From NCBI GenBank assembly GCA_029233965.1, contig JARGOP010000011.1, forward strand, positions 1 to 64,000: a stretch of DNA of 64,000 bases, in the 5' to 3' direction. This DNA is from Verrucomicrobiales bacterium (GTDB lineage Bacteria; Verrucomicrobiota; Verrucomicrobiia; Verrucomicrobiales; DEV007). The position numbers and the translations under genes were made by a program. Below, in pieces: positions 11,167 to 31,815 of this stretch (the stretch's first letter is position 1; every line of letters begins with the position of its first letter). Under the pieces are notes generated by a model. The model saw only the letters and a list, made by a program, of their open reading frames with translations, was not told where the DNA came from and ran no database searches.

Positions 11167-11210
11167 AAGGGATGCGTTCGTAAAAGCTTTACCATGATTT
11201 TACTCCTACG

Positions 11211-11870: not shown

Positions 11871-11956
11871 GCCTCAACGGCATTTCGTTTACGGGGACGC
11901 GTTTCGGCAGATCCATCGAGGTCCGCCGTCTCTTAAGTTTTCGCAAGGTTGATATC

Positions 11957-11985
11957 GGTTCGGGAAGTTTTGCCTCCCGAAAACC
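11957..11985 (+). terminator. possible terminator hairpin after the Verru_Chthon cassette
   Basis: GGTTCGGGA (11957-11965) pairs with TCCCGAA...CC (11975-11985) with a two-base bulge; CATTTTTC follows about six bases later. The stem is good but the T-tract is short and displaced, so this may be a terminator or only a stable stem between the two operons. Confidence 0.3.
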
Positions 11986-12041
11986 TGCTTCATTTTTCGC
12001 CTTCCCGACATTCGGGGAATTCGGTTGGATTTTCTCCCAAA

Positions 12042-12071
12042 AATCGCTTGTGAAATTTTTCACAAGCGATT
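12042..12071 (+). promoter_or_regulatory. perfect 30-bp palindrome with CRP-type core upstream of actA
   Basis: AATCGCTTGTGAAA (12042-12055), two T, then its exact reverse complement (12058-12071). The core is TGTGA (12049-12053), six bases, TCACA (12060-12064), the classic recognition pattern of CRP and related Crp/Fnr-family regulators. It ends 43 bases before the actA ATG, a natural place for an activator site controlling the respiratory block. No T-tract follows, so it is unlikely to be a terminator. The regulator gene is not in the window. Confidence 0.6.
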
Positions 12072-12114
12072 AAATGGGGCGTCTTCTGCGACCTAAAGGC
12101 CGTTTTCCTCTACG

Positions 12115-12876: not shown

Positions 12877-12912
12877 GGTGAAGTAAGGAAATTTTTGGAA
12901 TTTATCTGATTC

Positions 12913-15900
12913 ATGAAGCGTAAGTGGAAACATCCATCCGAGCCGGAAACATCGCGGGTTCATTGGCGCAGCCTTGGCGAATTGGAGGATTCTCCTGAAT
13001 TTAACGGCTGGCTTGAGCGTGAGTTTCCTCAGGGTGCGGCTGAGATGGAGGCCGATGAGACCTCACGACGCCAGTTTGTGAAGTTGATGGGGGCCTCGAC
13101 GGCACTCGCCGGATTTGGGGTGGCCTGTAAGCGTCCTGTGAAGCATCTCGTGCCCTACAATGAGCATGTGGAGTGGGTCGTTCCCGGGAAGGCGCTGTAT
13201 TATTCAACGGCAAAGTCGGCTCTTGGCGGGCTTGGTTGTGAGCCGCTCGTGGTGACGACTCATGAGGGGCGCCCGACAAAGGTGGATGGAAACCGCCTGC
13301 ACCCTGATGTGACCGGTGGTTCGACCGCTTTTACGCAGGCGTCGATTCTGGAGATGTATGACCAGGATCGCTCGAAAGGTTTTCTCAGAGACGGTTCTGC
13401 GACTGTTTCACAGGATTTCGAGAGTTCGTTTCTGGCGCCGTTCCGCGAAGCGGGTTCCGGTGAAGGGGTTGCTTTTCTGGTCTCTCCTTCCACTTCTCCA
13501 ACCCGCAACCGGCTCCTCTCTGAGGTTACGAAGAAGTATGCGGGGGCCAAGGTTTACTCGTATGAGGCGCTCATGCCCGCGGGAATGCTTGCTGCTTCAG
13601 CCGAGCTTTATGGTGCCGGTGCGCTCCCGGTGGTGAATCTCAGGAAGGCGAAGCGAATTTTGTCTCTGGATTGCGATTTTCTCGGAAATGACCCGGTGGG
13701 TCAGGATTCTCTGGCGGAATTTTCAGCAACCCGTGATCCGGATGGTGAGATGAGCCGTCTCTACTCGGCGGAGTCGTCCTTCACCCTCACGGGCGGGCAG
13801 GCGGATCATCGTTATCGTATTCCTGCTTCCCAGATCCTGCCTGTCGCGGTTCTCGTGGCGAAAGAGATCGGTTCCCTCGCCGGTGATGCCGGGCTCACCT
13901 CTCTGGCGGAGTCGCTTTCCGGAAAGATCGTTCCGTCGGTTTTCAATGGTAAGTGGATCAAAGAGTGTGCGGCTGATCTCGCCGGGGCAAAGGGGGCGGC
14001 GATCGTCCTTGCCGGTGGTCGTCAGTCGAAAGAGGTCCATCTTCTCGTGGCGGCCATCAATAAGGCTCTCGCTGCCTACGGTCCTCTCATTTCAATTGTC
14101 GATCACAAGCTCCCGAAATTTGCGGGGATCAAGGCTCTTGCCCGTGAGATTGAAAAGGGCGGGGTGAAGAAGCTGTTCGTCTTGAATGAGGGGGATGTGG
14201 CTTTTGACGCGCCTTCAGATCTTGGTTTTGCCGGCTTGCTTTCCGGGGTATCGGAAATCGTTCATCTCGGGTATCGAGTCAACGAAACGGCCCGGTTGGC
14301 GAACTGGCACGTTCCGGGTGCTCACTACCTGGAATCCTGGGGCGACTACCGCAGCCTGACCGGTATCTACTCGGTTCAGCAGCCGATGATTGAACCGCTC
14401 TGGGGCGGGATCTCGGAAAATCAGTTTCTTCTTTCCCTCCTCTCTGCAGACGTTACGCAGGAGGCTGTTCTCGGTGAAGTGAAGAAGAGTCTTAAGGCTG
14501 CCGGTGGCGATGACTGGGCTGTCGTCCTTCGTGACGGGTTTCTGGTCGGCAAGGCGCTTCCAACAAAGCCTTTCGAGGGAAATATCGCAATTCCGGCGGA
14601 TAAGGCCCGCGTTTCCGATCTTCCTCATGCTGAGGGGCTCGAAGTCTCGCTGACGGTGGGGAGTGCCACCTACGACGGGCGTTTCGCGAACAATGGCTGG
14701 ATGCAGGAAGCTCCGGATCCGATCACGAAACTGACCTGGGATAACGCGGCCTTGATGAGTTCAGCCACCGCTGAAGAGTTCGGGCTCGAAGATGGTGATC
14801 TCGTTGAATTGTCGGTCGGTGACCGCCGGGTCACAGCTCCGGCTTTGCGAGTTCCGGGACACGCGGAGTTTTCGATCAGTCTCGCCCTCGGTTATTACGG
14901 GGATCAGGGGGAAGGTGCCGTCTCTGCGGGGGCGGGATTCAATGCCTACCCTCTGATGACCTCAGCTCAGCCGTACGTGATCACCGGGGCGTTGCTGCGA
15001 AAGACCGGAGCAAAGCATGATCTCGCACTCACTGCTGAGCACTACAGCATGGAGGGTCGCGCCATCGCCCGTGAGGGGACGGTGGAGATGTACCGGGAGG
15101 ATGATCATTTTGCAGGACACCAGGGGATGGATCACCATATTCCCGAGAATGTTTCTCTCTACAAGGGGCCTGATTACATGGCCGGTGAAAATCCTGATGA
15201 GAGCCTGATTCCGGTTCTCGATGGTCATGCCTTCCGCGTCGATCCGCATCACCAGTGGGCGATGACGGTGGATCTGAATACCTGTATCGGTTGCAACGCC
15301 TGCGTGATTGCCTGCCAGTCGGAGAATAATATTCCGATTGTCGGAAAGCATCAGGTCATGGCGGGTCGCGAGATGCACTGGATCCGCATGGATCGCTACT
15401 TCACCAGTCCGAAGGACAGTGAGATTGTCGCGGAGCGGGGCGGCCCATTGGATTATCTTACCGGTGCGGAGAATACGAAGGATGAGCCCGGAAAGCGCAC
15501 CGTGGATGATGATCACATCGAGATGATTTCACAGCCGGTCGCTTGTCAGCAGTGCGAGAGTGCACCCTGCGAGACGGTTTGTCCGGTCAATGCGACGGTG
15601 CATACCGGCGATGGCTTGAATGCGATGACATACAATCGCTGCATCGGGACACGTTACTGCGCGAATAACTGTCCTTACAAGGCGCGTCGATTCAATTATT
15701 TCGATTACAACAAGCGTCCACTGGATAAGCTTTACCACGGTCCTCTTGCGCCTGCTTCCGGCAATGCGACGACGACTCAGCGTCTTCAGAAGAATCCGAA
15801 TGTGACCGTTCGGATGCGCGGAGTGATCGAGAAGTGTACCTACTGTGTTCAGCGGATCAGTGTTGCAAAAATTGCAGCGAAAGCCGCTGCTCGCGACTCG

Positions 15901-16155
15901 AAAGATGTTCAGGTCAAGGCGAACTCATTCACCGTAGCCTGTCAGGATGCCTGCGGCGCCGGGGCGATTACCTTCGGCAATCTCAAAGCGGAAGGAGACA
16001 AAATTAACGAGGCGAAGAAAAACCCTCGCAACTACGACCTTTTGAAGTATATCGGCACAATTCCGCGCACGAGTTATCTCGCGCGGATCAAGAACCCCAA
16101 CCCGAAAATGCCGGGTGCGGACAAGGTCGGGACGGTCACTTCGAAGATGCATTAA
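12913..16155 (+). CDS. actB: alternative complex III iron-sulfur subunit ActB
   Basis: 1080 residues. A twin-arginine signal (SRRQFVKLMGAS, near residues 51-62) ends near a Cys at 72 that might be lipidated. The central part resembles molybdopterin oxidoreductases, but in ACIII this part holds no molybdenum cofactor. The C-terminal part (from about 785) carries cysteine sets for several clusters: CIGCNACVIAC (about 791-801), CQQCESAPCETVC (about 877), CIGTRYCANNC (about 909), then CTYC (about 975) and CQDAC (about 1010). In characterised ACIII these give three [4Fe-4S] clusters and one [3Fe-4S] cluster. The subunit is exported folded and sits in the periplasm between ActC and ActA/E. The gene lies 36 bases after actA. 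Confidence 0.95.
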   Translation: MKRKWKHPSEPETSRVHWRSLGELEDSPEFNGWLEREFPQGAAEMEADETSRRQFVKLMGASTALAGFGVACKRPVKHLVPYNEHVEWVVPGKALYYSTAKSALGGLGCEPLVVTTHEGRPTKVDGNRLHPDVTGGSTAFTQASILEMYDQDRSKGFLRDGSATVSQDFESSFLAPFREAGSGEGVAFLVSPSTSPTRNRLLSEVTKKYAGAKVYSYEALMPAGMLAASAELYGAGALPVVNLRKAKRILSLDCDFLGNDPVGQDSLAEFSATRDPDGEMSRLYSAESSFTLTGGQADHRYRIPASQILPVAVLVAKEIGSLAGDAGLTSLAESLSGKIVPSVFNGKWIKECAADLAGAKGAAIVLAGGRQSKEVHLLVAAINKALAAYGPLISIVDHKLPKFAGIKALAREIEKGGVKKLFVLNEGDVAFDAPSDLGFAGLLSGVSEIVHLGYRVNETARLANWHVPGAHYLESWGDYRSLTGIYSVQQPMIEPLWGGISENQFLLSLLSADVTQEAVLGEVKKSLKAAGGDDWAVVLRDGFLVGKALPTKPFEGNIAIPADKARVSDLPHAEGLEVSLTVGSATYDGRFANNGWMQEAPDPITKLTWDNAALMSSATAEEFGLEDGDLVELSVGDRRVTAPALRVPGHAEFSISLALGYYGDQGEGAVSAGAGFNAYPLMTSAQPYVITGALLRKTGAKHDLALTAEHYSMEGRAIAREGTVEMYREDDHFAGHQGMDHHIPENVSLYKGPDYMAGENPDESLIPVLDGHAFRVDPHHQWAMTVDLNTCIGCNACVIACQSENNIPIVGKHQVMAGREMHWIRMDRYFTSPKDSEIVAERGGPLDYLTGAENTKDEPGKRTVDDDHIEMISQPVACQQCESAPCETVCPVNATVHTGDGLNAMTYNRCIGTRYCANNCPYKARRFNYFDYNKRPLDKLYHGPLAPASGNATTTQRLQKNPNVTVRMRGVIEKCTYCVQRISVAKIAAKAAARDSKDVQVKANSFTVACQDACGAGAITFGNLKAEGDKINEAKKNPRNYDLLKYIGTIPRTSYLARIKNPNPKMPGADKVGTVTSKMH

Positions 16156-16172
16156 TCTGATTTTTACTGGTA

Positions 16173-17615
16173 ATGGCAGGAACTTCTACAGCTGACACAA
16201 AGGTGCACCCGTCCGAGGCGGAGGGAGTGGCACGGGAGCCTCTCGTGCTCAATGACCGCCCGATGAGCTGGATCACCGACCGCATTTGCGGGATCGTTGA
16301 AAACCGGCAGCCTTTCATCTGGTGGGTGCTTTTTGTTCCCGCCGCGATGCTGTTCGGCCTTCTCATGGGGACGCTCGTATACCTCGTCTCGACCGGTGTC
16401 GGAGTCTGGGGGAACAACCAGCCGGTTGCCTGGGGCTGGGCGATTGTGAACTTTGTTTTCTGGATTGGTATCGGTCATGCCGGGACCCTGATTTCGGCGA
16501 TTCTCTTTCTGACACGGCAAAAATGGCGGACCTCGGTGAACCGGGCGGCAGAGGCGATGACGCTTATTGCGGTGATGTGTGCCGGAATTTACCCGGGTTT
16601 CCACGTCGGTCGTTTCTGGATGGTGTGGTTTCTTGCTCCGGTTCCAAACGCAAACGCGATCTGGCAGAACTTCAAGAGCCCGCTCCTCTGGGATGTCTTT
16701 GCGGTTTCGACTTACTTCCTGATCTCAGTGATCTTCTGGTATATCGGCCTCATTCCCGATCTCGCGACACTTCGCGACCGGGCTACCAAGAAAATTCCCA
16801 AGTTCCTCTACGGCTTTTTCGCGCTCGGCTGGCGCAGCGGGAACCGTCAGTGGCGTCATTATGAGATGGCCTATCTGCTCCTCGCGGCGCTCTCGACCCC
16901 TCTCGTTCTTTCCGTTCACTCCGTGGTCTCCTTTGACTTTGCGACTTCGGTGGTTCCGGGATGGCACACGACGATTTTCCCTCCCTACTTTGTTGCCGGG
17001 GCGATTTTCGGTGGCTTCGCGATGGTGCTGACCCTGATGCTTCCGGTGCGCAAACTGTACGGCCTCGAAGATCTCTTCACGCACAAGCACATCGACAACA
17101 TGTCCAAGATCATTCTCCTCACGGGGACGATCGTGGGTTACGCCTACATCATGGAGCTGTTCATCAGCTTTTACGGGGCGAATAAATTTGAGACGGATGC
17201 CTTCCACCTGCGGATTCTTTCCGGCCCCTACACCTGGGCCTACTACTGCATGTTCTTTTGCAATGTGATTGCCCCCCAGATCTTCTGGTTCCAGTGGGCG
17301 CGACACAACCTCTGGGTCGTGTTTATTGTCGCGAACTTCGTGAACTTCGGAATGTGGTTTGAGCGTTTTGTGATTATTCCGACGACGCTTGCCCGTGACT
17401 TCCTTCCGGGGCAGTGGGGCTACTACTCGCCCTCACTGACGGAGAAGCTCATGTTCGCGGGAACGTTTGGAATGTTCTTTATGCTTTTCCTTCTCTTTAT
17501 CCGTTTTCTGCCTGTCATCGCGATGTCCGAGGTGAAAGGGGTGTTGCCGCAGAGTGATCCTCATTTCCCGGACTGGAAAAAACTTCGTGAGAAGCGGAGG
17601 CAGGCTGATTCCTGA
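16173..17615 (+). CDS. actC: alternative complex III NrfD-like quinol-binding subunit ActC
   Basis: 480 residues with about ten hydrophobic membrane segments, an NrfD/PsrC-family integral membrane protein. In alternative complex III, ActC forms the quinol site next to the [3Fe-4S] cluster of ActB. A characteristic stretch is [20 protein letters not shown], followed by [19 protein letters not shown]. The gene begins 17 bases after actB. Length is usual for the family; no insertion is seen here, unlike ActF. Confidence 0.95.
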
Positions 17616-17643
17616 TTTGTAAACTGAGACCCCACTGAATCTT

Positions 17644-18201
17644 TTGAGCGCATCATCTGACAACTCCAAGAGCCTGTTTGGCTACGTGGCTGAGTTTCCG
17701 ACCGCGAGTGATCTTTATCATGCGGCTGAGAAGGTCCACGAAGCAGGGTTTCGCCGCTGGGACGTTCATACTCCGTATCCGGTTCATGGAATGGACCACG
17801 CGATGGGATTAGGGAAGAGCTGGCTTTCCGCCGGGGTTCTCGTTGGGGGAACGACTGGATTCCTTTTCGCCCTGTTCCTGCAGTTCTTTACTCAGGTCTC
17901 TCTGTATCCGACGGTGGTGCAAGGCAAGCCGACGAACCTTTTTACGATGCCGGCCTTTTTCCCGGTCACCTTCGAGCTGACGATTCTGTTTTCAGGGTTC
18001 ACGATTTTGTTTGGTCTTCTGGCGGTGATCATGTTGCCGCGCTGGAATCATCCGCTCTTTACCTCGAAGCTCTTCGAGAAGGCGACCGATGACGGGTTTC
18101 TCATGGTGATCGAAGCCCGTGATCCGAAATTTAAGAAAGAAAAGACTCACGATTTCCTCCAGGAAATTGGAGCCGGGAAGATCGAAGAGGTCGCAAACTG
18201 A
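17644..18201 (+). CDS. actD: alternative complex III subunit ActD
   Basis: 185 residues. A cytoplasmic alpha/beta domain (DLYHAAEKVHEAGFRRWDVH, then TPYPVHGMDHAMGL) precedes two membrane helices at about residues 60-85 and 105-130. The PVHG motif is typical of ActD (DUF3341), a peripheral-plus-anchored subunit without cofactors. The only start that keeps the whole domain is TTG 17644; the next Met codons are inside the conserved PVHG region. ActC ends 28 bases before. Confidence 0.9.
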   Translation: MSASSDNSKSLFGYVAEFPTASDLYHAAEKVHEAGFRRWDVHTPYPVHGMDHAMGLGKSWLSAGVLVGGTTGFLFALFLQFFTQVSLYPTVVQGKPTNLFTMPAFFPVTFELTILFSGFTILFGLLAVIMLPRWNHPLFTSKLFEKATDDGFLMVIEARDPKFKKEKTHDFLQEIGAGKIEEVAN

Positions 18202-18216
18202 ACTGAATACATTAGA

Positions 18217-18840
18217 ATGCGTTGGTTTTTCCTCATTTTAGCGATCGCGGTAGTGGCAACAGTGTATGCCCTGGGACCGCGTGGTGAAAAGTTTTCGGAT
18301 CCGCCTTTCGAGCTGTTTCCGGACATGGACCACCAGTATCGTGTCAATTATCAGAAGCCGAGTGACTTCTTTGAAGACGGTCAGGCCTCGCGCGAGCCGG
18401 TTGCGGGGACCGTTCCGCTTGGGTTCACGTTTCCTCATGAAGGAAACAATGATGACTTGAGCACTCCCCTCGATTTCAGTCGTGGCGACAGCTATGCGGA
18501 CACGGGCCTGTTTGGAGATTTTTACGGATCCGGGTACCCGGAAACCTTGAAGGTGGACGAAGAATTTCTCGCCCGCGGAGAACAGCGCTACCAGATCACT
18601 TGCACGCCGTGTCATGGGGAAAGCGGAAATGGCGTCGGCGTCGTCTCCAAATACTGGGCGATCCCGCCGACGGCTAATTTAATTGACGCGCGGGTTTCCG
18701 CGATGCCCGAAGGGCAGATTTTTTGGACAATCACACACGGCAAGGGGCTGATGGGCCCTTACAATGGAGTTCTTTCCGTCAATGACCGGTGGGCGGTCGT
18801 TGCATACGTGAAAGCCCTGCAGGCAGCTGCCGGAAACTGA
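18217..18840 (+). CDS. actE: alternative complex III mono-haem cytochrome c subunit ActE
   Basis: 207 residues. An N-terminal hydrophobic helix (about residues 2-20) precedes the ActE signature region (ELFPDMDHQYRVNYQKPS, then REPVAGTVPLG). A single haem c site CTPCH follows at about residue 129, with GMGP-type Met candidates after it. ActE is a periplasmic electron-exit subunit in ACIII. No lipobox is visible at the N-terminus, so it is probably held by the helix. It lies directly after actD and before actF. Confidence 0.95.
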   Translation: MRWFFLILAIAVVATVYALGPRGEKFSDPPFELFPDMDHQYRVNYQKPSDFFEDGQASREPVAGTVPLGFTFPHEGNNDDLSTPLDFSRGDSYADTGLFGDFYGSGYPETLKVDEEFLARGEQRYQITCTPCHGESGNGVGVVSKYWAIPPTANLIDARVSAMPEGQIFWTITHGKGLMGPYNGVLSVNDRWAVVAYVKALQAAAGN

Positions 18841-18864
18841 TTACGATTTTTTGCGTTACTTCTC

Positions 18865-20382
18865 ATGGCTGGATTAAAAGACGGCGACAATTACAAAGAC
18901 GGCGAATTCCTGAAATCGCCCACTCTCCTCAAGCTCATCTGCCTCGCAGTCGGAGTAGGGGGGCTGATTCTGTTTTTCGGTCTTCGCCTCGCGATGCCTG
19001 AGAAAGCCGGAGCGATGGGCTACAGCTGGCTCTTCGCCGTGGTTTTCTTTCTTTCCCTCTCGATCGGGGGGATGTTCTGGACCCTCCTGCACCATGCGAG
19101 TAACTCCGGATGGGGAACGGTGATTCGCCGTCTCATGGAGAATCTTGGCGTGATGGTTCTCGTCTGTCTCGTCCTCGGACTGCCGCTTCTCGTTCCTCAA
19201 CTCGGATTCAGGGATGCTCTCTGGGAATGGTTTCCCAAACGCGCTGCCGCTCTCGAGGTTGCGGCGGAGAAGGCGGAAGAAGGCAAGGCTGCCTACGTCG
19301 CCGAGCACAATGCTTCGCTCGAGAAGGTCACCGGTGAACTGGAGAAGGCGAAAGCCGATTTCGCAGCAATCGACTCGCCAAGTCCCGGGCATCGCGCTCA
19401 CTTCGAGCGCTCCATCGGTTCTCTGGAAGCGAAGGTCGAGGAGTTGTCCTCGGCTGAAGTGACCGAAGAGAAGGCCGTCAAGAAGCTCAAGGACAAATTT
19501 TTCCTGAAAGAGGAGGCCTTGCTTTATGTGAAGCGTGCCTATCTCAACGAGAACGCCTGGTATCTGCGCTTCTGGTGTTACTTCATCGCTCTTGTCGGAA
19601 TTGCCTACACGCTCAAACGCTGGTCTGTGCGTCAGGATTCAGATCCCGACCCCAAGTGGTTCCGCTGGATGCGCCGCTGGAGCTGCGGATTCCTGCCTTT
19701 CTTTGCGACGGCCTGGACCTTTCTTGTCTTTGACTGGCTTATGGCTCTCGACTACGCGTGGTTTTCCACGATGTGGGGAGTCTACCTCTTCGCAGGCTGT
19801 GCTTTGAACTCGATGGGGCTTCTCGTCATCATGGTGACGGTGTTGCGCAAGGCTGGATACCTCAAGAACGTGGTCACTCTGGAGCATTATCACCTTATGG
19901 GTAAGCTGATGCACGCCTTTGTTATCTTCTGGGCCTACATCGCCTTCTCTCAGTATTTTCTGATCTGGTATGCGAACATCACGGAGGAAACGAAGTTTTA
20001 CCTCACGAGAAATACCGAGTTTTGGAATACGTTCACGATCATGTGTCTCGTTGTCGGACACTTCTTCATCCCGTTTGTGATCCTTCTCGTTCGCAAGGTG
20101 AAGATGATGCCGGTGGTTTTGTCAGCGATCGCGGTTTGGAACCTGTTGATGCACTTCTGTGATATCTACTGGATCATCATCCCGGAGCGAGGCCCTTCAC
20201 TTTCTGCGGCCGCGGGTGCAGACATTCAAATGACCATTCCCGGGGCCTGGCTTTTTGATCTTCTCGCCTTCATCTCGGTGGCCGGCATTTTCGGATATTT
20301 TCTTCTGAGGCAGCTGGGCTCAGCCAGTCTCTTCCCGTGTCGGGATCCCCGTCTCGATGAGTCTCTCAACGTGGTGAACTAA
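18865..20382 (+). CDS. actF: alternative complex III membrane subunit ActF with coiled-coil insertion
   Basis: 505 residues, longer than the usual 400-450. Three membrane helices (about 21-43, 52-76, 92-112) are followed by a hydrophilic region of about 100 residues (about 122-225) rich in Ala, Glu and Lys, with heptad character (AALEVAAEKAEEGKAAYVAE). The conserved part resumes at LYVKRAYLNENAWYLRFWCY and the remaining helices. Related ActF proteins have only a short loop here. With a cytoplasmic N-terminus the insert would lie in the periplasm. ActF is structurally related to ActC but lacks a quinol role in known ACIII. Family assignment is firm; the role of the insert is unknown. Confidence 0.95.
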   Translation: MAGLKDGDNYKDGEFLKSPTLLKLICLAVGVGGLILFFGLRLAMPEKAGAMGYSWLFAVVFFLSLSIGGMFWTLLHHASNSGWGTVIRRLMENLGVMVLVCLVLGLPLLVPQLGFRDALWEWFPKRAAALEVAAEKAEEGKAAYVAEHNASLEKVTGELEKAKADFAAIDSPSPGHRAHFERSIGSLEAKVEELSSAEVTEEKAVKKLKDKFFLKEEALLYVKRAYLNENAWYLRFWCYFIALVGIAYTLKRWSVRQDSDPDPKWFRWMRRWSCGFLPFFATAWTFLVFDWLMALDYAWFSTMWGVYLFAGCALNSMGLLVIMVTVLRKAGYLKNVVTLEHYHLMGKLMHAFVIFWAYIAFSQYFLIWYANITEETKFYLTRNTEFWNTFTIMCLVVGHFFIPFVILLVRKVKMMPVVLSAIAVWNLLMHFCDIYWIIIPERGPSLSAAAGADIQMTIPGAWLFDLLAFISVAGIFGYFLLRQLGSASLFPCRDPRLDESLNVVN

Positions 20383-20402: not shown

Positions 20403-20840
20403 ATGAGCAATCAGGCATCATCCACTTCCTCTCCGTTCAAGGTGTTTCTTGGAGCGATGGGGGTATTTGTCTTCTTCGGATTTCTGGCATTGATTCTCTC
20501 AGGATATGCCGGGCATGAGAGCCTCGAAGATCGTGCCTACATGGGAGAGTTTGACGCGGAAACGATTCAGCAGCGCTGGGCTAATCTGGAGGAGATTGAA
20601 ACGGCGCAAAGCAGTCTCCTCGATGAGAAGAAGGTGGCAGCAGAAATGACTGCTCTCGTAAAAAATGCGCCGAAGGCGGCCAAGTCTTCCGTGGTAGTGC
20701 CGGGATCTCCCACTTTCACGAAGCAGATGGAAGAGGCTTCGGCACCGAAGGAGGAAGCGCCGGCAAAACCTGCCGAAGCGGCCAAGCCCGCGGCACCTGC
20801 TACTCCCGCCGCCCCGTCTGAAGTTAAACCTGCTCAGTGA
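20403..20840 (+). CDS. small membrane protein with Ala/Pro-rich tail, respiratory block
   Basis: 145 residues, no family recognised. One membrane helix (about residues 13-36, FLGAMGVFVFFGFLALILSG) is followed by a charged helical stretch (about 45-90) and a low-complexity tail of Ala, Pro, Lys and Glu. It lies 20 bases after actF and its stop overlaps a possible GTG start of the ccoN-like gene, so it is translated as part of the block. Position between alternative complex III and the oxidase genes suggests an accessory or linker subunit; that is inference only. Confidence 0.75.
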   Translation: MSNQASSTSSPFKVFLGAMGVFVFFGFLALILSGYAGHESLEDRAYMGEFDAETIQQRWANLEEIETAQSSLLDEKKVAAEMTALVKNAPKAAKSSVVVPGSPTFTKQMEEASAPKEEAPAKPAEAAKPAAPATPAAPSEVKPAQ

Positions 20841-20875
20841 GTAAAAACGCACGTTTGCAGAAACGAGAAAATTTT

Positions 20876-22336
20876 ATGACAGTTCCCCAACCGACACCGG
20901 AAGAAATGGCAGAGCGCGCCTCGATTGATCGCTCTACCCGGTATCCTGTGATGTTTTTCTTCACCAGTGCGGCTGCCTGGTTGCTTGCGGCAACTCTGCT
21001 GGGTTTCCTGAGTTCTTTGAAACTGCGCGTTCCGGAGCTTTGGGATGGTTGTGAATTCGTCACCTACGGTCGTCTCTTTCCTGCTCACATGAGTGCCCTT
21101 GTCTATGGATGGGCGATGCAGGCAGGGATCGGTGTGATGCTTTGGCTCATGGCACGCCTCACCCGGAATGAGTTGAAGCACGGTGTTACCATCATTGTGA
21201 TCGGGCACGTTTGGAACGCTGCCGTGACCCTCATGGTTTTCAGTGTCTGGTTTGGGTTCGGGCGCGGGATTCCTCTTCTTGACTTTCCCCGGTGGATCTG
21301 GCCTGTCGTCGCTCTGTCTTACGCTTTGATTGTTGTCTGGATGGTCCCGATGTTCCGTTCACGGCGTGATTCCCCCGTTTATGTTTCGGAAATGTTCATC
21401 GTCGGGGCTGCGGTCTGGTTTCCCTGGATTTTTCTTACCGCTAACATCTTCATCAACAAGGGGACTGCTCCGGTCATGGGTGCGGGTATCGATGCCTGGT
21501 ACATCACGAACCTGATCTACTTCTGGATGGCGCCCGTCGCACTTGCAGTCGCTTATTACATTATTCCAAAGATTGCCGGTCGACCGATTTACAGTTATCC
21601 GCTCGCCCATCTGACTTTCTGGTTGCTCGCTTTTCTGGCCGGATGGACGGGATTCTCCCGCTTCATGGGCGGGCCGTTTCCTGCCTGGATGCCTGCTGTT
21701 AGCGGGGCGGCCGCAATTTTTATTCTCCTCGCCATCCTTGCGACAGTGACGAATCTGATGCTGACCTTGAAGGGGTGTTCCAAACTGTGGGAATACAGTC
21801 CTTCTCTGCGTTTCACGGTTTTCGGCATGCTCATGCTTGGGCTTTATGCGTTGCTCTCAGCGATGAGTTCCACTTTTTACTTCGGAAAGAACCTCCAGTT
21901 CAGCCACTTCGTTGTCGGAATGGACACACTCGCGTTTTACGGTTTCTTCTCGATGACGATTTTCGGCGCGATTTACTTCATCGTCCCCCGCATCACGGGT
22001 GCTGAGTGGCCTTCCGGGGCGAGAATCCGCTCTCATTTCTGGTGGAGCACCTACGGTATCATGACTCTCGTCGTCACGATGTTGGTCGGCGGCGTCGCCC
22101 AGGGAGGAAACCTCGCCGTTTGGGATCAGGAGTTTTCCACCTCGTTTGTGAACTCGTCAGCCTATGTGGTTGGACGTGCCGTGGCGTGGGCGTTGATTTC
22201 CTACTCCAACTTCCTCTTCCTTTACCAACTGGCTCTGATGTTTGCTGGAAAAGGACGAAAGTCCGACGGGCCGACTTTGATCCATGCTGAACCTGGAACG
22301 GCGCCAAGCGCGAAAGCCGCGGCAGGCTTGAGCTGA
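20876..22336 (+). CDS. degenerate CcoN-like protein (cbb3 oxidase subunit I fold without active-site ligands)
   Basis: About 486 residues with roughly 12 membrane helices. Similarity to cbb3 oxidase subunit I is clear around GRLFPAHMSALVYGW, AYYIIPKIAGRPIYSYPL and FGAIYFIVPRITG. His71 matches the first low-spin haem b ligand. Yet YGHN of active enzymes is YITN here (Thr211), and FLYIWAGPHH aligns without gaps to FLAGWTGFSR: the cross-linked Tyr is Ala255 and the CuB His pair is Ser261-Arg262. GHVH is GMDT, losing the haem b3 His (Met349) and the second haem b His (Thr351). It therefore cannot form the haem-copper centre. A GTG at 20837 overlapping the previous stop is an alternative start. 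Likely role: scaffold for the cytochromes encoded next; inferred. Confidence 0.85.
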   Translation: MTVPQPTPEEMAERASIDRSTRYPVMFFFTSAAAWLLAATLLGFLSSLKLRVPELWDGCEFVTYGRLFPAHMSALVYGWAMQAGIGVMLWLMARLTRNELKHGVTIIVIGHVWNAAVTLMVFSVWFGFGRGIPLLDFPRWIWPVVALSYALIVVWMVPMFRSRRDSPVYVSEMFIVGAAVWFPWIFLTANIFINKGTAPVMGAGIDAWYITNLIYFWMAPVALAVAYYIIPKIAGRPIYSYPLAHLTFWLLAFLAGWTGFSRFMGGPFPAWMPAVSGAAAIFILLAILATVTNLMLTLKGCSKLWEYSPSLRFTVFGMLMLGLYALLSAMSSTFYFGKNLQFSHFVVGMDTLAFYGFFSMTIFGAIYFIVPRITGAEWPSGARIRSHFWWSTYGIMTLVVTMLVGGVAQGGNLAVWDQEFSTSFVNSSAYVVGRAVAWALISYSNFLFLYQLALMFAGKGRKSDGPTLIHAEPGTAPSAKAAAGLS

Positions 22337-22359
22337 TAACTGAAACGAATTTCTTTCGA

Positions 22360-22971
22360 ATGAAATCTGACACATTTTTGAAACTGATCGGGGGCCTTGC
22401 TTTGGCATTTCTTCTCCCCTGGGTGTTTCTTATTCTCATCCCCTTTGTTTCGGCATCGAATGCTGAGCCGATTCCCTACGGAGAGGGCGAGGAAGTCGAG
22501 GGTGGCGTGACGGCTTATCCTGACAGTGTTTTCTATCGTCACGGTTCGAGCGATTACGGTCGTCAGATCTATGCTGCGGAAGGTTGTGTTTATTGCCACA
22601 CACAGGTAATTCGCCCCACCTATGCCGGGCCGGATATGTGGCGCCCGGGATGGGGCGGTCGAGAGGCTGACGGGCTCGCCCGCGAGACGCAGCCGATGGA
22701 TTACACCCTGGAGGAGGTCGCTCCTCTTGGATACCAGCGCATCGGGCAGGATCTTTCCAATGTCGGGCATCGTATCACCACGAGGGAGTTGATGCATCAG
22801 CATCTCTCCGACCCGAAAAGTCTCGACCCTGATAGCGGCATGCCTGCTTACCTCCACCTCTACAAGAAATCTCCGTATGGCGAAGGACTTGTTCCAACAC
22901 CGAAGGCGGAGGCCCTTGTTGATTATCTTCTCTCACTGAAGAAAGATCAGCCTGTTCCCTCAGGAAAATAA
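22360..22971 (+). CDS. CcoO-like membrane-anchored mono-haem cytochrome c
   Basis: 203 residues. An N-terminal membrane helix (about residues 7-29) anchors a periplasmic domain. EGCVYCHTQVIRPTY is the CcoO haem c motif, CVYCH at about residues 70-74. GMPAYLHL near residue 157 supplies the expected Met ligand. QRIGQDLSNVGHR matches the CcoO region before it. In cbb3 oxidases CcoO docks on CcoN and feeds electrons to it. Here its CcoN partner lacks catalytic ligands, so it may deliver electrons elsewhere. It follows the ccoN-like gene by 23 bases. Confidence 0.9.
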   Translation: MKSDTFLKLIGGLALAFLLPWVFLILIPFVSASNAEPIPYGEGEEVEGGVTAYPDSVFYRHGSSDYGRQIYAAEGCVYCHTQVIRPTYAGPDMWRPGWGGREADGLARETQPMDYTLEEVAPLGYQRIGQDLSNVGHRITTRELMHQHLSDPKSLDPDSGMPAYLHLYKKSPYGEGLVPTPKAEALVDYLLSLKKDQPVPSGK

Positions 22972-22999
22972 TTGAATTTAAAGTCTCAAGCAGAACCAG

Positions 23000-23737
23000 A
23001 TGGCAGACGAGATAAAGAACATTGATTACGAGCAGGGTCTTCCCGGCGCGATTGACCTTCACGATTCCGTGAAACGGGAGAATCCTCTCTCTCAGGGTGG
23101 CGAAGGAACTGTTGGTCTTACCGTGATGGTGATCGGGGCTCTCATTCTCATCCTTGGTGGTGGTCATCTCTTCAGCTCGAGCAACGGTTTTAAATCCAGC
23201 ATTTACATCAGCGAGAATTACCAGCCCGAACCGCGCCCGTCCCTGGGCGGAGATGAATCCGCCGCCGAGCAGGTCGCCTGGATTGAGGACTGGATGAGTG
23301 ATGGCAAGAAAGTTTACAATAACTGCATCGCCTGCCATCAGGCCTCAGGTCTCGGTATTCCGGGGCAGTTTCCACCTCTGGTCGGATCCGAGTGGGTTGA
23401 TCAAGGTACCTCACGGCTCGGTGCGATCATGTTGCACGGCATCAATGGTCCTTTCAAAGTCGCCGGGCAAACCTACAATCAGCTGATGCCGGCGTGGAAC
23501 AATTTGAGCGATGAGAAAATTGCTCAGGTGGTTACTTACATTCGCCGTGAATTTGGCAGTCTCCAGGAGGGGGATGACGGCGTAGTAACCACCGAAATGA
23601 TCAAGGCGGCGCGCGAGCAGTTTGGCAGTCACAGTGGACCTTACACGGAAGCTGAGCTGCTGGCGATTCCCGCCGATGAAGATTTACCCGGTTCCAGGGT
23701 GGACCTGGAAACCGGTGAGCCGCTCAGCGAAGGCTGA
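23000..23737 (+). CDS. membrane-anchored mono-haem cytochrome c (CcoP-like)
   Basis: 245 residues. A cytoplasmic N-terminus of about 35 residues (containing YEQGLPGAIDL) leads into one membrane helix (about 36-55). A periplasmic cytochrome c domain follows with CIACH at about residues 112-116 and a Met candidate in QLMPAW (about 157). The topology resembles CcoP, but with one haem instead of two. It completes an N-O-P-like triple with the preceding genes. It could carry electrons from alternative complex III to the CuA site of the aa3 oxidase encoded next, whose subunit II has no fused cytochrome domain. Confidence 0.85.
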   Translation: MADEIKNIDYEQGLPGAIDLHDSVKRENPLSQGGEGTVGLTVMVIGALILILGGGHLFSSSNGFKSSIYISENYQPEPRPSLGGDESAAEQVAWIEDWMSDGKKVYNNCIACHQASGLGIPGQFPPLVGSEWVDQGTSRLGAIMLHGINGPFKVAGQTYNQLMPAWNNLSDEKIAQVVTYIRREFGSLQEGDDGVVTTEMIKAAREQFGSHSGPYTEAELLAIPADEDLPGSRVDLETGEPLSEG

Positions 23738-23819: not shown

Positions 23820-25745
23820 ATGAGCGCAGTAACCGCAGAGAAGCACGAAGAGACTCATGATGATCACCACGATCATTATGAGCCGTTTTGGAAAAAGTAC
23901 ATTTTTTCGACTGATCACAAGACGATCGGAATCCAGTACGGTTTCACCGCGCTCGTCTTCCTGGCGTTTGGATTCTTCCTCATGATGGTGATGCGGTGGA
24001 GCATCGCCTACCCGGACCGTGCGGTTCCGCTCCTTGCGGACTGGCCGTGGTTCCAGGCCTGGCTCGACGATGGAGGCAAGGTGACGGGCGATCTTTACAA
24101 TATGTTCGGAGCGATGCACGGCACGATCATGGTCTTCCTCGGAGTTGTTCCGCTGGCTTTCGGCGCTTTCGGAAACTATGTCACTCCGTTGCAGATTGGT
24201 GCGCCGGACATGGCTTTCCCACGCCTCAATATGGCAAGCTACTGGCTCTACCTGCTCGGTGGTGTCCTCATGTTTGTGAGCTTTTTCCTGCCTTCCGGCG
24301 CGGCCAAGGCAGGGTGGACCAACTACTCTCCTTTGGCGACGACGACCGACCTTCACTACGGTGATCTGTTCTGGACCGGTCAGACGCAATGGCTCATGGG
24401 AATGGTCTTTCTCATTAGCTCCTCGCTCCTCGGTGCGGTGAACTTCATCTGCACGATCATCAATCTGCGGTGTCGTGGAATGACATGGATGCGTATGCCT
24501 TTCTTTGTCTGGGCCATGCTCGTGACCGGGTTCCTCCTCCTCCTCGCGTTCCCTCCGCTCGAGGTGGCTGCGCTGATGCAATTGATGGACCGCCTTGCGG
24601 GGACCAGTTTCTTCATTCCGACAGGATTGAATGTCAGTGGCATGTCGTTTGATGCCGCCGGGGGCGGAAGTCCGCTTCTTTACCAGCACTTGTTCTGGTT
24701 CCTCGCTCACCCGGAGGTTTACGTTCTGATTCTTCCTGCGCTCGCGATTGTCTCCGAAGTCATCCCATGCAACACGCGCAAGCCTCTCTGGGGTTACAAG
24801 ACCATGGTCTACGCGGTTATGGTCCTCGGATTCCTCGCCTTTATTGTCTGGGCGCATCACATGTATATCACCGGAATGGGGCCGGCGGTTTCGACCTTCT
24901 TCCAAACCACGACGGTCCTGATTTCAATCCCTTCGGTGATTTTGATCACCTCGCTTCTCATTTCGATGTGGGGAGGATCGATTCGGTTCACGGTCCCTAT
25001 GCTCTTTGCAACGGCATTCATTCCGATGTTCGGGATCGGTGGATTGACCGGTCTCCCGCTTGCTTTCAGCCTGACGGATCTTCATCTGCACGACACATAC
25101 TACGTGATCGGACACTTCCACTACGTGGTGGCTCCGGGAACGATCTTTGGACTCTTCGCGGGAATCTATCACTGGTATCCGAAGATGACGGGAAGAATGA
25201 TGTCGACTCGTCTCGGTCATCTTCACTTCTGGCCGTCATTGATTTTCATGAACGGGATCTTCGCCCCCATGTTCTTCCAGGGCATGGCAGGATTTCACCG
25301 CCGTGCCTTCGATGGCGGCAAGGCCTACGAGCAGATCAGCAATCAGGTCTTTTCGGAGCCGAATACCTTCATCTCGAATCTCTGCGAGATGATGCATGTT
25401 ATCGAGCCGGACGCTCCCCTCCGGATGATCGATTTGAACATCATCACCTCCGGTTCAGCGTGGCTGCTCGCAGTCGCTCAGGTCCCGTTTATCATCAATC
25501 TTTTCCTCAGCGCGTTTAACGGGAAGAAGGCCGAAAGCGACAATCCGTGGGATGCAACGACCCTTGAGTGGGCAACGCCAACGCCCCCGCCTCATGGGAA
25601 CTTTGCGACTGAGCCGGTGGCTTATCGAGGCCCTTACGAGTACAGCGTGCCGGGTGCGGATCGCGACTTCACTCCGCAGTTCGAGAGTGATCCCTCTTCT
25701 CTCGCGACCGGGAAAGAAAATGAGGAGGCGCCTGCGCCTCATTAA
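23820..25745 (+). CDS. coxA: cytochrome c oxidase subunit I (aa3-type), K-channel lysine absent
   Basis: 641 residues. This is the catalytic subunit reducing oxygen to water. Ligands are present: His100 (haem a), HPEVY with His297 and Tyr301 for CuB and the cross-link, His346-His347 (CuB), and HFH with His432 (haem a3) and His434 (haem a). Asp130 in GAPDMAFPRLN and Glu299 mark the D channel of A1-type enzymes. In helix VIII, PTGIKIFSWIATMWGG of typical enzymes aligns without gaps to PSVILITSLLISMWGG, so the K-channel Lys is Leu375. The N-terminus is His-rich (HEETHDDHHDHY). An 82-base gap precedes it, long for this block, and may hold an internal promoter. Confidence 0.95.
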   Translation: MSAVTAEKHEETHDDHHDHYEPFWKKYIFSTDHKTIGIQYGFTALVFLAFGFFLMMVMRWSIAYPDRAVPLLADWPWFQAWLDDGGKVTGDLYNMFGAMHGTIMVFLGVVPLAFGAFGNYVTPLQIGAPDMAFPRLNMASYWLYLLGGVLMFVSFFLPSGAAKAGWTNYSPLATTTDLHYGDLFWTGQTQWLMGMVFLISSSLLGAVNFICTIINLRCRGMTWMRMPFFVWAMLVTGFLLLLAFPPLEVAALMQLMDRLAGTSFFIPTGLNVSGMSFDAAGGGSPLLYQHLFWFLAHPEVYVLILPALAIVSEVIPCNTRKPLWGYKTMVYAVMVLGFLAFIVWAHHMYITGMGPAVSTFFQTTTVLISIPSVILITSLLISMWGGSIRFTVPMLFATAFIPMFGIGGLTGLPLAFSLTDLHLHDTYYVIGHFHYVVAPGTIFGLFAGIYHWYPKMTGRMMSTRLGHLHFWPSLIFMNGIFAPMFFQGMAGFHRRAFDGGKAYEQISNQVFSEPNTFISNLCEMMHVIEPDAPLRMIDLNIITSGSAWLLAVAQVPFIINLFLSAFNGKKAESDNPWDATTLEWATPTPPPHGNFATEPVAYRGPYEYSVPGADRDFTPQFESDPSSLATGKENEEAPAPH

Positions 25746-25789
25746 GAGTCGACCGCATATTTTCCTACTAACAGGTTAACATTTTTACT

Positions 25790-27268
25790 ATGGAGATTCC
25801 CTACGAAGTAACCCCCCGCCGCGATACAGGGTTGTACAACTCTAAGCTGGCTGTCTGGCTTTTCCTTGCCTCTGAGGTAATGCTTTTTGGCGGTTTGTTT
25901 TCCGGTTATGTCTTTCTTCGTCTCGGTGTTCAGGAAGGGGTCGATAATCCATGGCCATGGGGGCTCAACGTCCACAAAGGGTATGTCTGGCTGGGCTTTC
26001 TCAACACTCTGATTCTGATTGGATCCAGTGTGGGCGTCGTCTTCGCCTGGGTCGCGCTGAAGGAGCGGAACTGGAGACGGTTTCAGGTTCTGATGTATGC
26101 GGTAGTCGCCTGCGCTGTTGCTTTCATGTGTATTAAGTCCGTTGAGTACAACAGCAAGCTCACGAAGCACCACGGAATCAAGTTGCTGGATAACTCCGTA
26201 ATGGAGGGTCGAATTCTCGACGGCACCGATAAAGTTCGATTCGCGGGTGAAAAGGCTTCTTTCAGTCTCCAGGGAGCCCTCCCCATTTTTCTTCGCGAAC
26301 TTGCGGGGGACGAGTTCCCCGAGTTGACTCTTGAAACGGCGGAAGGGGAGGAGCCGGTCACCTTCTCTTCTAAAGGGGAGTTTAAGAAGTGGTTTTATCA
26401 GGCTCGTCGTGAAACGGCCTCCGGTCTTGCCGACGAACGGAAGCGGTATCGAACGGAGCTGGCGAATGGAGTCGAAAATCCCACGCCGGTTTCTGTCTCT
26501 ACGAGTGCTACCGTCACCGCATCAAAGCCTTTTCCATTGAATGGGAATCCGAGGACGGTGATCGGTCACTCCGATACCACGATGAACTATCGGGATGGCT
26601 CCAAGGTTGACGGGACCCTGACTGGAGACGATGTCCTTTTCGAAATTCACGAAGTGGACATGCAGCTTGTCATGCCGACCAAGCAGCGCGATTCAATGCT
26701 TTGGGAAGTCGTGAATGATGAAGGAGCCAAGCAGGAGTTCTTCACCAAGCAGCACAAGTATTACGAGACGATGCGGGCATACTATGAGCCGCGCGGGGAG
26801 ACTATCCCGGAGAAGATGCTCCGCGGACACAAGCTCAACCTCCACTACGTCCACGTCGGTGGTGACCATGAGGAAGGTCACGGGTCCGACGGAGAGAAGC
26901 AGGAGGGAGAGAAGGAACACCACGGTGATGAAGTTCACACCAGTGAGAGTAAGCCTTCCGCCTCCAAGCTTGAGAAGGATACCGGCCACCACGGAACAAT
27001 CACGGTTCCGAGGGACAAGATTAAATTCATGGGTAACCACGGTCCCCGTTACGGCAACTACTACGCGATCTACTTCACGATGACCGCTCTTCACGGTCTT
27101 CACGTCGTCGGCGGAGCGCTTGTGCTGCTGTATTTTGTTGTCTTTGGAAAGAAAATGTTCCTGAAGAATCCCGAGCATCTTGCCAACCGTGTAGAGGTGG
27201 GTGGATTGTTCTGGCACTTTGTTGACCTGATCTGGATCTTTCTGTTCCCGATCATGTATCTCCTTTAA
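25790..27268 (+). CDS. coxC: cytochrome c oxidase subunit III with a 300-residue insertion
   Basis: 492 residues against about 200 for the five-helix form. Residues 1-120 hold three membrane helices (LAVWLFLASEVMLFGGLFSG, then VWLGFLNTLILIGSSVGVVF and the helix ending MCIKSVEY). Residues about 423-492 hold the last two helices with TALHGLHVVGGALVLLYF and GGLFWHFVDLIWIFLFP, the family hallmarks. Residues about 121-422 are inserted: mixed polar sequence, then a His/Glu/Asp-rich stretch (about 352-402: DHEEGHGSDGEK, EKEHHGDEVH). By helix count this lies in the periplasm. The reading frame is continuous and the flanks are intact, so this is not an assembly artefact by appearance. The insert shows no known domain. 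Confidence 0.9.
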   Translation: MEIPYEVTPRRDTGLYNSKLAVWLFLASEVMLFGGLFSGYVFLRLGVQEGVDNPWPWGLNVHKGYVWLGFLNTLILIGSSVGVVFAWVALKERNWRRFQVLMYAVVACAVAFMCIKSVEYNSKLTKHHGIKLLDNSVMEGRILDGTDKVRFAGEKASFSLQGALPIFLRELAGDEFPELTLETAEGEEPVTFSSKGEFKKWFYQARRETASGLADERKRYRTELANGVENPTPVSVSTSATVTASKPFPLNGNPRTVIGHSDTTMNYRDGSKVDGTLTGDDVLFEIHEVDMQLVMPTKQRDSMLWEVVNDEGAKQEFFTKQHKYYETMRAYYEPRGETIPEKMLRGHKLNLHYVHVGGDHEEGHGSDGEKQEGEKEHHGDEVHTSESKPSASKLEKDTGHHGTITVPRDKIKFMGNHGPRYGNYYAIYFTMTALHGLHVVGGALVLLYFVVFGKKMFLKNPEHLANRVEVGGLFWHFVDLIWIFLFPIMYLL

Positions 27269-27292
27269 TCTGAACTTTCATTGTCTCTTACT

Positions 27293-27661
27293 ATGTCGGA
27301 AGAAATCCACGACTGGGGAAAGCACAAGAAGACCTACCTGATGGTAGGAATTGCTCTCTTTTTCTTCACCTTTGTCACTATCGCCCTCGCACTGTTCCCG
27401 CCATTTGATGTCGGCCCTCCGGGACCCACTCCCGGTGATTATGTCCTCGGCCTCGCGGTGGCGACTACGAAGGCAAGCCTCGTTGCGCTCATTTTCATGC
27501 ACCTCAACCATGAGCGTGGCCTGATTTACAAAACGCTCGTTTTCACGGTCCTGTTTTTCATCGGGCTAATGGCACTTACTCTTTTCGCGGAGTTCGATCC
27601 CATTCGTGAGCAGTACGACACTTTCGAGACCACGAACGGTAAGTTAACTGAACAGGAGTAG
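27293..27661 (+). CDS. coxD: cytochrome c oxidase subunit IV-type protein
   Basis: 122 residues with three membrane helices (about 14-36, 47-70, 80-101) and the segment TTKASLVALIFMHLNHERG, typical of prokaryotic cytochrome c oxidase subunit IV (caa3 and quinol oxidase type). It stabilises the oxidase and has no cofactor. I start at ATG 27293; an in-frame TTG at 27281 would add four residues. It lies 24 bases after coxC. Confidence 0.85.
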   Translation: MSEEIHDWGKHKKTYLMVGIALFFFTFVTIALALFPPFDVGPPGPTPGDYVLGLAVATTKASLVALIFMHLNHERGLIYKTLVFTVLFFIGLMALTLFAEFDPIREQYDTFETTNGKLTEQE

Positions 27662-28109: not shown

Positions 28110-28874
28110 ATGATTGAATGGATTAATGACATTTCCGGGATGCACGAAGTGGCTTCCCGACACGGTGATGTGGGGAACCACATGCTCGCGCTGATTCACT
28201 GGTTCATGGCAATCCTGTTTGTTGGATGGACTGCTTTCCTTATCGTGGTGCTTTTCAAGTTTAATCGGAAGAAGAACCCAAAGGCGAACTACAACGGGAT
28301 CACCTCTCATTTCTCGACACACGTTGAGGTTGGGGTTGTCATTGTTGAGGTCGTTCTCCTGCTCGGTTTCGCATTTCCGCTCTGGGCCAAGCGTGCGGAT
28401 GCGAAGGAGCGCCCTACCGGCGATGAGGTCGTGAACTTGAGGGCGGTTGGTGAGCAGTATCGCTGGACCTTCCACTATGCAGGGGCGGACAAGCTGGTGG
28501 GAATGACCTCCCACGAGCGGCTCTCGGGAGGCAATCCTGTAGGACTCGTTCAGGAAGATCCGAACGCAACGGATGATTTCGTTTCCGTGAATGAACTCGT
28601 TCTTCCGAAAGGGCGCCCGGTCGTGATCCAGGTCACCTCGAAAGACGTGATTCATGGCCTTGCAATTACGCCCATGTTCATCCAGCAGGATGCGATCCCG
28701 GGATCTGAGATCCCGATGTGGTTCGTTCCTGAGAAAGAAGGTGAGTGGAACATCGTTTGTGCCCAGCTTTGCGGAGCAGGCCACGCTCAAATGGTGGCCT
28801 ATGTGAAGGTGGTAAGCTCAGAGGAGTTTGACGAGTGGTATTCCTCACAGAATCCGCTGCTTCCGAAATCCTGA
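28110..28874 (+). CDS. coxB: cytochrome c oxidase subunit II (CuA)
   Basis: 254 residues. Two membrane helices (about 26-49 and 72-93) precede a cupredoxin domain. CuA ligands are visible: His182 (KDVIHGLAI), Cys217, Cys221, His225 and Met228 in CAQLCGAGHAQM. The residue between the cysteines, usually Glu in CSELC, is Gln219; the CuA ligand there is a backbone carbonyl, so CuA should still form, but the Glu side chain that also helps bind Mg is lost. No cytochrome c domain is fused at the C-terminus, so the enzyme is aa3- rather than caa3-type and needs a separate cytochrome donor. A terminator follows at 28905. Confidence 0.95.
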   Translation: MIEWINDISGMHEVASRHGDVGNHMLALIHWFMAILFVGWTAFLIVVLFKFNRKKNPKANYNGITSHFSTHVEVGVVIVEVVLLLGFAFPLWAKRADAKERPTGDEVVNLRAVGEQYRWTFHYAGADKLVGMTSHERLSGGNPVGLVQEDPNATDDFVSVNELVLPKGRPVVIQVTSKDVIHGLAITPMFIQQDAIPGSEIPMWFVPEKEGEWNIVCAQLCGAGHAQMVAYVKVVSSEEFDEWYSSQNPLLPKS

Positions 28875-28983: not shown

Positions 28984-30132
28984 ATGAACGATGCTCACCC
29001 CCGTAGCCGGGCATTTCAGATATTTTCCCGTCTCGTCGTCTTCGTCGCCGTTCTTCTCATCTGGTGGGGCGCAGCGACAACGACAAAGCAGGCCGGCATG
29101 GTATTCGCCGACTGGCCTTTGAGCCTTGGTTCCTTCAATCCTCCGGGATGGCTCGATTACATGGTGCCCTTTCTGGAGCACAGTCATCGCCTCCTCGCGA
29201 AACTGGTGGGAGTCCTTGTGCTCATTCTCTTCTCGTGGGCCTATGTCCGTTCCGGGAAGCAGGCCCTGGAGGTTGTCCTCCTCGTTCTGGTGCTCGTCGT
29301 CACTCTGGGTGTCTTCATTGCCGCGGGTGATGAGCGTTTCGATGCAGGTCGGAAACAAATGTTTCTGACCGTCGCCCTTGGACTGGCGCTACTGCCGATC
29401 GGGTGGCTTCTCTGGAGTTGGAAAGCGAGGTCCTGGACTCTCGTCGAGAAGTTGACGGCTTTAGCTCTTCTCATGGTGACGACCCAGGCCATCTTCGGAG
29501 GTCTCCGCGTGACGGAGATTTCCGACGTTTTTGCGGTGATTCACGGCTGCTTTGCCCAGGCATTCTTTTGCGTTCTCATTCTGATCGCAATGGCCTCGGG
29601 CGGTGGATGGGAAAACACGGGATTCACGGGGAGCGTAGACCGGCTTCGATTGACGAAAATAGCGGGAACGATCTTTACTGGCCTGATTTTTCTACAGCTC
29701 ATTCTCGGGGCGAAAATGCGGCATTTTCATAGGAGCGGAGTTCCGGACGATGATTTGTTCAGGACACAGGGGCAGTGGATCCCCGGATTCGAGGATCCGA
29801 TCATTGCAGTTCTCTTTCTTCACAAATTTACCGCCGTTTGCGTTCTTCTCTTTGCCCTCGGTATTGCGATTCGTCTCTTTACCGGAAGAAAGCAGAGTGA
29901 CGGCAGGGATTTCAGGCTGATGGCTCTCATCGTGGGATTGATTCTGTTTCAGATTGTTCTCGGTCTGTCCGTCATCGGAACAGAAAAGAGTTTCTGGGTC
30001 ACCAATGTCCATGTCTTGAACGGACTGAGCATCCTCGCGTTGGCCTTTGTTTTTGCCGTACGCGCGTGGCGAGGTCGTTACGTGGAGTCCGGACTCGCTA
30101 ATCCTTCTTCCGGCGTTACCTTGAAGGCCTGA
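28984..30132 (+). CDS. ctaA: haem A synthase (COX15/CtaA family)
   Basis: 382 residues with about eight membrane helices. It oxidises the C8 methyl of haem O to the formyl group of haem A for the aa3 oxidase. Visible are the EHSHRLLAKLVG motif (haem-binding His residues), AVIHGCFAQAF, LHKFTAV and TNVHVLNGL, giving the paired histidines of the two half-domains. Start at ATG 28984. It is followed directly by ctaB, so the two enzymes of haem A formation are paired. Confidence 0.9.
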   Translation: MNDAHPRSRAFQIFSRLVVFVAVLLIWWGAATTTKQAGMVFADWPLSLGSFNPPGWLDYMVPFLEHSHRLLAKLVGVLVLILFSWAYVRSGKQALEVVLLVLVLVVTLGVFIAAGDERFDAGRKQMFLTVALGLALLPIGWLLWSWKARSWTLVEKLTALALLMVTTQAIFGGLRVTEISDVFAVIHGCFAQAFFCVLILIAMASGGGWENTGFTGSVDRLRLTKIAGTIFTGLIFLQLILGAKMRHFHRSGVPDDDLFRTQGQWIPGFEDPIIAVLFLHKFTAVCVLLFALGIAIRLFTGRKQSDGRDFRLMALIVGLILFQIVLGLSVIGTEKSFWVTNVHVLNGLSILALAFVFAVRAWRGRYVESGLANPSSGVTLKA

Positions 30133-30140
30133 ATTCACCC

Positions 30141-31058: not shown

Positions 31059-31088
31059 GGGATCGGGGAGACGTAAGTAACTTTGGCT

Positions 31089-31814: not shown

Positions 31815-31815
31815 T

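Follow-up and report, generated by a model that had tools for sequence, protein, structure and literature searches.

A CcoN homologue without its oxygen-reducing site and two c-type cytochromes as a probable electron relay from alternative complex III to the aa3 oxidase in Verrucomicrobiia

In the 64,000-nucleotide stretch of a Verrucomicrobiales genome analysed here (the window), genes resembling those of a cbb3-type oxidase were located between the genes of alternative complex III (ACIII) and those of an aa3 oxidase. This raised the question of what cbb3-like subunits do between a quinol-oxidising complex and another oxidase, and by which route electrons leave the ACIII. The genes were arranged as follows.

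12115..20382, + strand: actA to actF, alternative complex III, with five haem c motifs in ActA, one in ActE, and ActD as PF11821
20403..20840, + strand: one-helix Ala/Pro-rich protein, an ancestral operon member
20876..22336, + strand: ccoN*, a CcoN homologue without CuB and haem b3 ligands, its 12-helix fold predicted to be intact
22360..22971, + strand: ccoO-like membrane-anchored cytochrome with CVYCH, its Met ligand (GMPAY) kept
23000..23737, + strand: ccoP-like anchored mono-haem cytochrome with CIACH and LMPAW
23820..27661, + strand: coxA, coxC, and coxD of the aa3 oxidase (A-type)
28110..28874, + strand: coxB, with a CuA motif and without a fused cytochrome c domain
28984..32916, + strand: ctaA, ctaB, SCO, and a DUF420 protein, maturation genes for oxidase haem and copper

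The successive gaps from actF to coxA were 20, 35, 23, 28, and 82 bases, all genes being on the + strand, as an earlier note on this DNA had placed them. The complex III was recognized as an ACIII from actABCDEF with a penta-haem ActA, a mono-haem ActE, and NrfD-like ActC and ActF; ActD matched PF11821 (6.5e-58) and ActC matched NrfD (7.4e-24) in Pfam, and ActF, with no Pfam match, was assigned from its position and homology. CoxB had the CuA motif and ligands and no CX2-4CH, which sets the oxidase apart from the caa3 type and agrees with the CoxB free of a fused cytochrome described in the earlier note. There was no match to bc1 cytochrome b in the window genome, and its gene content points to ACIII as the sole complex III. 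Several ORFs upstream of actA (4998-11870) had N-terminal methylation motifs like those of type IV pilins; one of these ORFs was 1530 aa long.

The start of ccoN* was placed at ATG 20876 rather than at GTG 20837 because homologues open with MTVPQPT. The protein matched COX1 (PF00115) with 133 bits (1.6e-38), and scored 107 bits against the ccoN equivalog, the cut-off of which is 583. Its ligand positions (P. stutzeri CcoN numbering H60/H207/Y251/H257/H258/H345/H347) were compared with P. stutzeri CcoN and with the genome's own CcoN; H207, H257, and H258 are ligands of CuB, H345 of haem b3, and H60 and H347 of the low-spin haem b, and Y251 is the active-site Tyr. At these seven aligned positions the window protein read HTASRMT where a working CcoN has HHYHHHH. 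The CuB and haem b3 ligands were all replaced (by T, S, R, and M), as was the Tyr (Y251 to A), and in the low-spin haem b pair H60 was kept and H347 was changed to T. By this alignment the window CcoN is predicted to be catalytically dead, as the earlier note had called it. A single-chain AlphaFold model had 12 helices with a pLDDT of 85.8, and its best PDB matches by Foldseek were the structures 3mk7, 6xkw, and 8smr of working CcoN; the predicted fold and homology are those of a C-type oxidase subunit. The window genome also encoded, on contig C115 (L002), a genuine CcoN-CcoO fusion without ACIII linkage and 24% identical to the window CcoN. Both are C-type oxidase subunits by homology; unlike the window protein, the fusion had all ligands, and it is presumably the working high-affinity oxidase of this genome.

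A GTDB genome scan with the family profile gave 55 loci, all from Verrucomicrobia (the scan patterns returned Verrucomicrobia only), and a search across the phylum (289 genomes) supplied 60 further loci. The order actF–one-helix gene–ccoN–ccoO–ccoP was found wherever the contig was long enough among the 55 loci, with the exception of L075, and in most of the 60; with more than 100 loci of identical gene order, the arrangement is therefore not a matter of chance. The ligands of the ACIII-linked CcoN were all kept in 21 loci (intact) and damaged in 87 (dead). The 21 intact loci presumably encode working ACIII-linked cbb3 oxidases; two genomes with an intact CcoN, G057 and G195, had no haem-copper oxidase besides the ACIII-linked one. 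This comparison points to actABCDEF-1TM-ccoN-ccoO-ccoP as an ancestral ACIII-cbb3 operon of the class Verrucomicrobiia. It also takes the earlier note further, in that the ancestor of the CcoN, CcoO-like, and CcoP-like trio was a working ACIII-cbb3 oxidase, which is still present in relatives. The CcoN of L087 (7581-9053), in which only the CuB ligand H207 was changed, to Arg, and whose locus has coxB without coxA, is a candidate intermediate of inactivation. ACIII-linked CcoN copies had common Trp/Gly/Pro/Arg scaffold residues, and most had an N-terminal ID-STR-PV motif that was absent from the canonical CcoN compared. Apart from these loci, Akkermansia-like genomes (code g4; e.g. G043 and G266) gave weak ActD matches of 37-71 bits, possibly to a divergent ActD-like protein of another complex, and searches of G036 and G043 gave no haem-copper oxidase.

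The two cytochromes following ccoN*, which the earlier note had described as live, had complete haem motifs. The CcoO-like protein matched FixO (3e-14) and was mono-haem, with CVYCH and GMPAY, and the CcoP-like protein had a single haem motif, CIACH, with LMPAW. The trio thus resembles cbb3 CcoNOP in its fold (TM approximately 0.8 to 3mk7), its N-O-P gene order, and the presence of haem c in O and P, and differs from it in the CcoN without an active site and in a P subunit with one haem instead of two. In the dead operons, CXXCH was kept in all CcoO-like and CcoP-like proteins except the truncated ORF L062. The CcoP Met ligand was kept in 81/81 dead operons and that of CcoO in 62/84; in the other 22/84 it was replaced by C, S, H, R, or K, and the CcoO haem may therefore be off the main path there. 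Judged from this pattern of retention, constraint is therefore on the haem-bearing parts, and strongest on the P haem. The one-helix protein of the window (145 aa), which the earlier note had read as a one-helix Ala/Pro-rich protein ahead of CcoN, was indeed predicted to have a single helix, with a tail rich in Ala and Pro, and occurs in intact-CcoN operons also. In dead operons of the f2 clade and in that of L132 it carried a cytochrome c domain, and in those of another clade a plastocyanin/azurin-type cupredoxin domain, seen in L067, L070 (PF00127, 2e-08), L072, L077, L078, L079, L085, and L086. Such added domains were confined to dead-CcoN operons and were found in 0/21 intact operons.

Long branches of dead copies clustered on the CcoN tree, and therefore an ActC tree, which is independent of the trait, was used too and both counts are given. 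Intact and dead operons were intermixed on the ActC tree, which had 12 losses of the CcoN active site in its best form and at least 8 when only well-supported branches were counted, with midpoint rooting and the long L141 branch as caveats. The CcoN tree required approximately four losses; it unites most dead copies of the families f9, f7, and f13, and therefore the number could be nearer to four. The residues replacing each His differed among dead lineages, as separate losses would predict.

The presence of a partner oxidase was examined next to that of complex III. An A-type CoxA was found in 28/28 of the dead-CcoN genomes tested, and the four trio genomes without an A-type oxidase all had an intact CcoN (Fisher p 0.03, kinship ignored). 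Every genome checked for ACIII had it, with five haems in ActA in nearly all loci. In 19/28 dead-CcoN genomes, including the window genome, there was no bc1 cytochrome b, and ACIII is therefore the only known electron source for their cytochrome c oxidase; in 9/28 there was a cytochrome b match, which could feed the oxidase instead. The co-occurrence with act and oxidase genes that the earlier note had put forward as a check stood, for the dead trio and an A-type oxidase in the Verrucomicrobia genomes tested, as to presence in the genome. It did not stand as to linkage: members of f9 (one large family), f7, and f13 had a dead trio with ACIII alone and an unlinked caa3 oxidase with its own fused haem, and L075 had the trio with coxA and ACIII on a separate contig. 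We thus rejected, as a general rule, a position of the dead CcoN beside aa3 such as the earlier note saw in the window.

Act-linked CoxB had the fused haem c in 0/56 cases with the trio present, CuA being kept, and in 6/7 ACIII-aa3 operons that lacked the trio (one of them with an unusual CX3CH), a contrast between few clades whose Fisher p-value therefore overstates independence. These counts support the view that the trio stands in for the CoxB-fused haem c in ACIII-aa3 operons. In L108 and L087, coxB adjoined the trio and the A-type coxA of the genome was located elsewhere. In L174, CX3CH motifs (CAAACH and CMAACH) were seen in place of CXXCH in the haem domain fused to CoxB and in an anchored protein encoded nearby (12274-13236 and 14172-15353, - strand). 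L172 (G063, methanotroph family) contained ACIII, the one-helix gene, and coxC-D-B with neither the trio nor coxA in place, and its CoxB had no fused haem, though the trio was absent.

Two exits from ACIII have been described: a sixth, N-terminal haem of ActA in F. johnsoniae, and an extra haem fused to the caa3 oxidase in R. marinus (PMC8552683). The window resembles both, including the ACIII-aa3 supercomplex of F. johnsoniae, in having actABCDEF beside an A-type oxidase, here known from genes alone, and in having, by gene content, ACIII as the sole complex III. Unlike in either organism, ActA had five haems, CoxB had none, and the CcoN homologue with its two cytochromes lay in between. We propose that a cbb3-type (C-type) oxidase was co-encoded with ACIII in an ancestor of these bacteria and survives as the four genes, and that CcoN, its oxygen chemistry lost, would have been kept as a membrane scaffold placing two c-type cytochromes by ACIII. 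Electrons would pass, in the direction that we infer, from menaquinol through ActB/ActA/ActE to the CcoP-like haem and on to CuA of the aa3 oxidase, with the CcoO-like haem also on the path in many lineages, so that the haems of the trio would replace the sixth ActA haem of Flavobacterium or the fused CoxB haem of Rhodothermus. This explanation as a whole, of a dead-CcoN scaffold with a relay from ACIII to aa3, seems to us fairly probable. It draws on the dead site, the haem sites, synteny, purifying selection, repeated loss, and the complementarity with CoxB. The relay that the earlier note had proposed is retained for the dead CcoN, the kept haems, and the A-type oxidase in all 28 genomes, and given up as to a general adjacency to aa3; for the window lineage it appears well supported by comparison and is the best-supported reading. 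Where aa3 is unlinked, the relay may serve the unlinked oxidase. There may be physical contact in a fixed ACIII-oxidase supercomplex, as the earlier note had it; gene linkage is the evidence for this, the models being of single chains.

Other readings of the trio differ in what they make of CcoN. That it still reduces oxygen, by way of unusual ligands, is how annotation and PMC6688271, PMC8498564, and PMC11102522 treat the ACIII-linked methanotroph genes in calling them a cbb3 oxidase; we find this barely credible, since all ligands of CuB and haem b3 and the active-site Tyr have been replaced, and not by the same residues from lineage to lineage. A decaying relic under little selection would agree with branches that are longer once the active site is lost (0.56 in L116 versus 0.02-0.10 in intact sisters) and with dN/dS values of 0.1-0.26 for dead CcoN (unsaturated pairs), above those of intact pairs. 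These values are, however, far under 1, reading frames stay open, and fold motifs and haem sites are conserved across a whole order and several families; redox domains were gained, not lost. The CcoN fold is thus under purifying selection after loss of the active site, and we rejected the pseudogene reading on dN/dS and the conserved haem sites as highly improbable. A new chemistry or ion conduction in CcoN, such as a proton path or one low-spin haem bound to the remaining His of helix II, has in its favour the retention of this His by most members of the window's genus and by several related genera, and a 12-helix fold modelled as intact. In many dead lineages, however, the His is replaced by F, A, Q, L, R, or S, and a search of the CcoN alignment for dead-specific conserved positions returned a single Ala. 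No polar residue was shared by dead copies and absent from live ones, so that a new shared active site was rejected, and we regard this reading as improbable.

The remaining alternative, that CcoN and the cytochromes belong to ACIII as structural or assembly subunits and that electrons leave directly by ActE or ActA, is unlikely to a lesser degree. The c haems would then be side branches, or would serve other acceptors such as soluble cytochrome c or the genuine CcoNO oxidase. It would account for the trio accompanying ACIII more strictly than aa3 and for the loss of the CcoO Met ligand in roughly one dead operon in four, and exits can be redundant, since Flavobacterium does not need ActE to reduce aa3 (PMC8552683). 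Against it, the CcoP haem and Met are kept in every dead operon counted, the trio substitutes for the haem fused to CoxB, and coxB remains with the trio where coxA is elsewhere. On the relay reading, a dead enzyme with its shape kept and the neighbouring haem proteins now probably wires a quinol-oxidising complex to another oxidase. This would be a third, recurrent solution to electron exit from ACIII; intact and dead versions occur in sister families, and the solution is therefore testable by comparison. It would also offer an example, of unusual clarity, of a redox enzyme that became a subunit without catalytic activity several times over. We lean, if slightly, towards the broader statement that an ACIII-linked oxygen reductase was disarmed many times in one class and reused as a scaffolded c-type wire, with redox domains added to its one-helix subunit, the methanotroph "cbb3" being one case.

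One paper (PMC6688271) links the high affinity of verrucomicrobial methanotrophs for oxygen to their ACIII-linked cbb3 oxidase, and a FEMS review (PMC8498564, citing Refojo 2010) places ACIII-linked cbb3 genes in these methanotrophs and in Opitutaceae. The operon and the protein family are the same as those described here, where 21 loci from other families had an intact CcoN. In contrast to the published working oxidase, G310 (with two pmoA genes) and G121 and G201 of the same family had the operon with a ligand-less CcoN (ADAAHQT; SESSHFV), followed by aa3 genes. The methanotroph ACIII-linked "cbb3" is, as read from its ligand positions, dead in these three genomes, and the literature would need correction where it ties oxygen affinity to a CcoN that here appears to be without its oxygen site. 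The other haem-copper proteins of G310 looked like two A-type (profile score), one B-type, and one NorB (motif reading), and no working C-type CcoN was seen among its haem-copper proteins by profile scores and motif reading. A search of the open literature, with Refojo 2010 itself outside it, found no precedent for a ligand-less ACIII-linked CcoN. In L170 (G121), a nos cluster lay within the ACIII operon at approximately 5000-14200, between actF and the one-helix and ccoN genes; it comprised a NosZ-like protein, NosL, NosD, NosF, NosY, and two small cytochromes, and this layout matches the nos genes within the ACIII operon of Methylacidiphilum caldifontis IT6 (PMC11102522).
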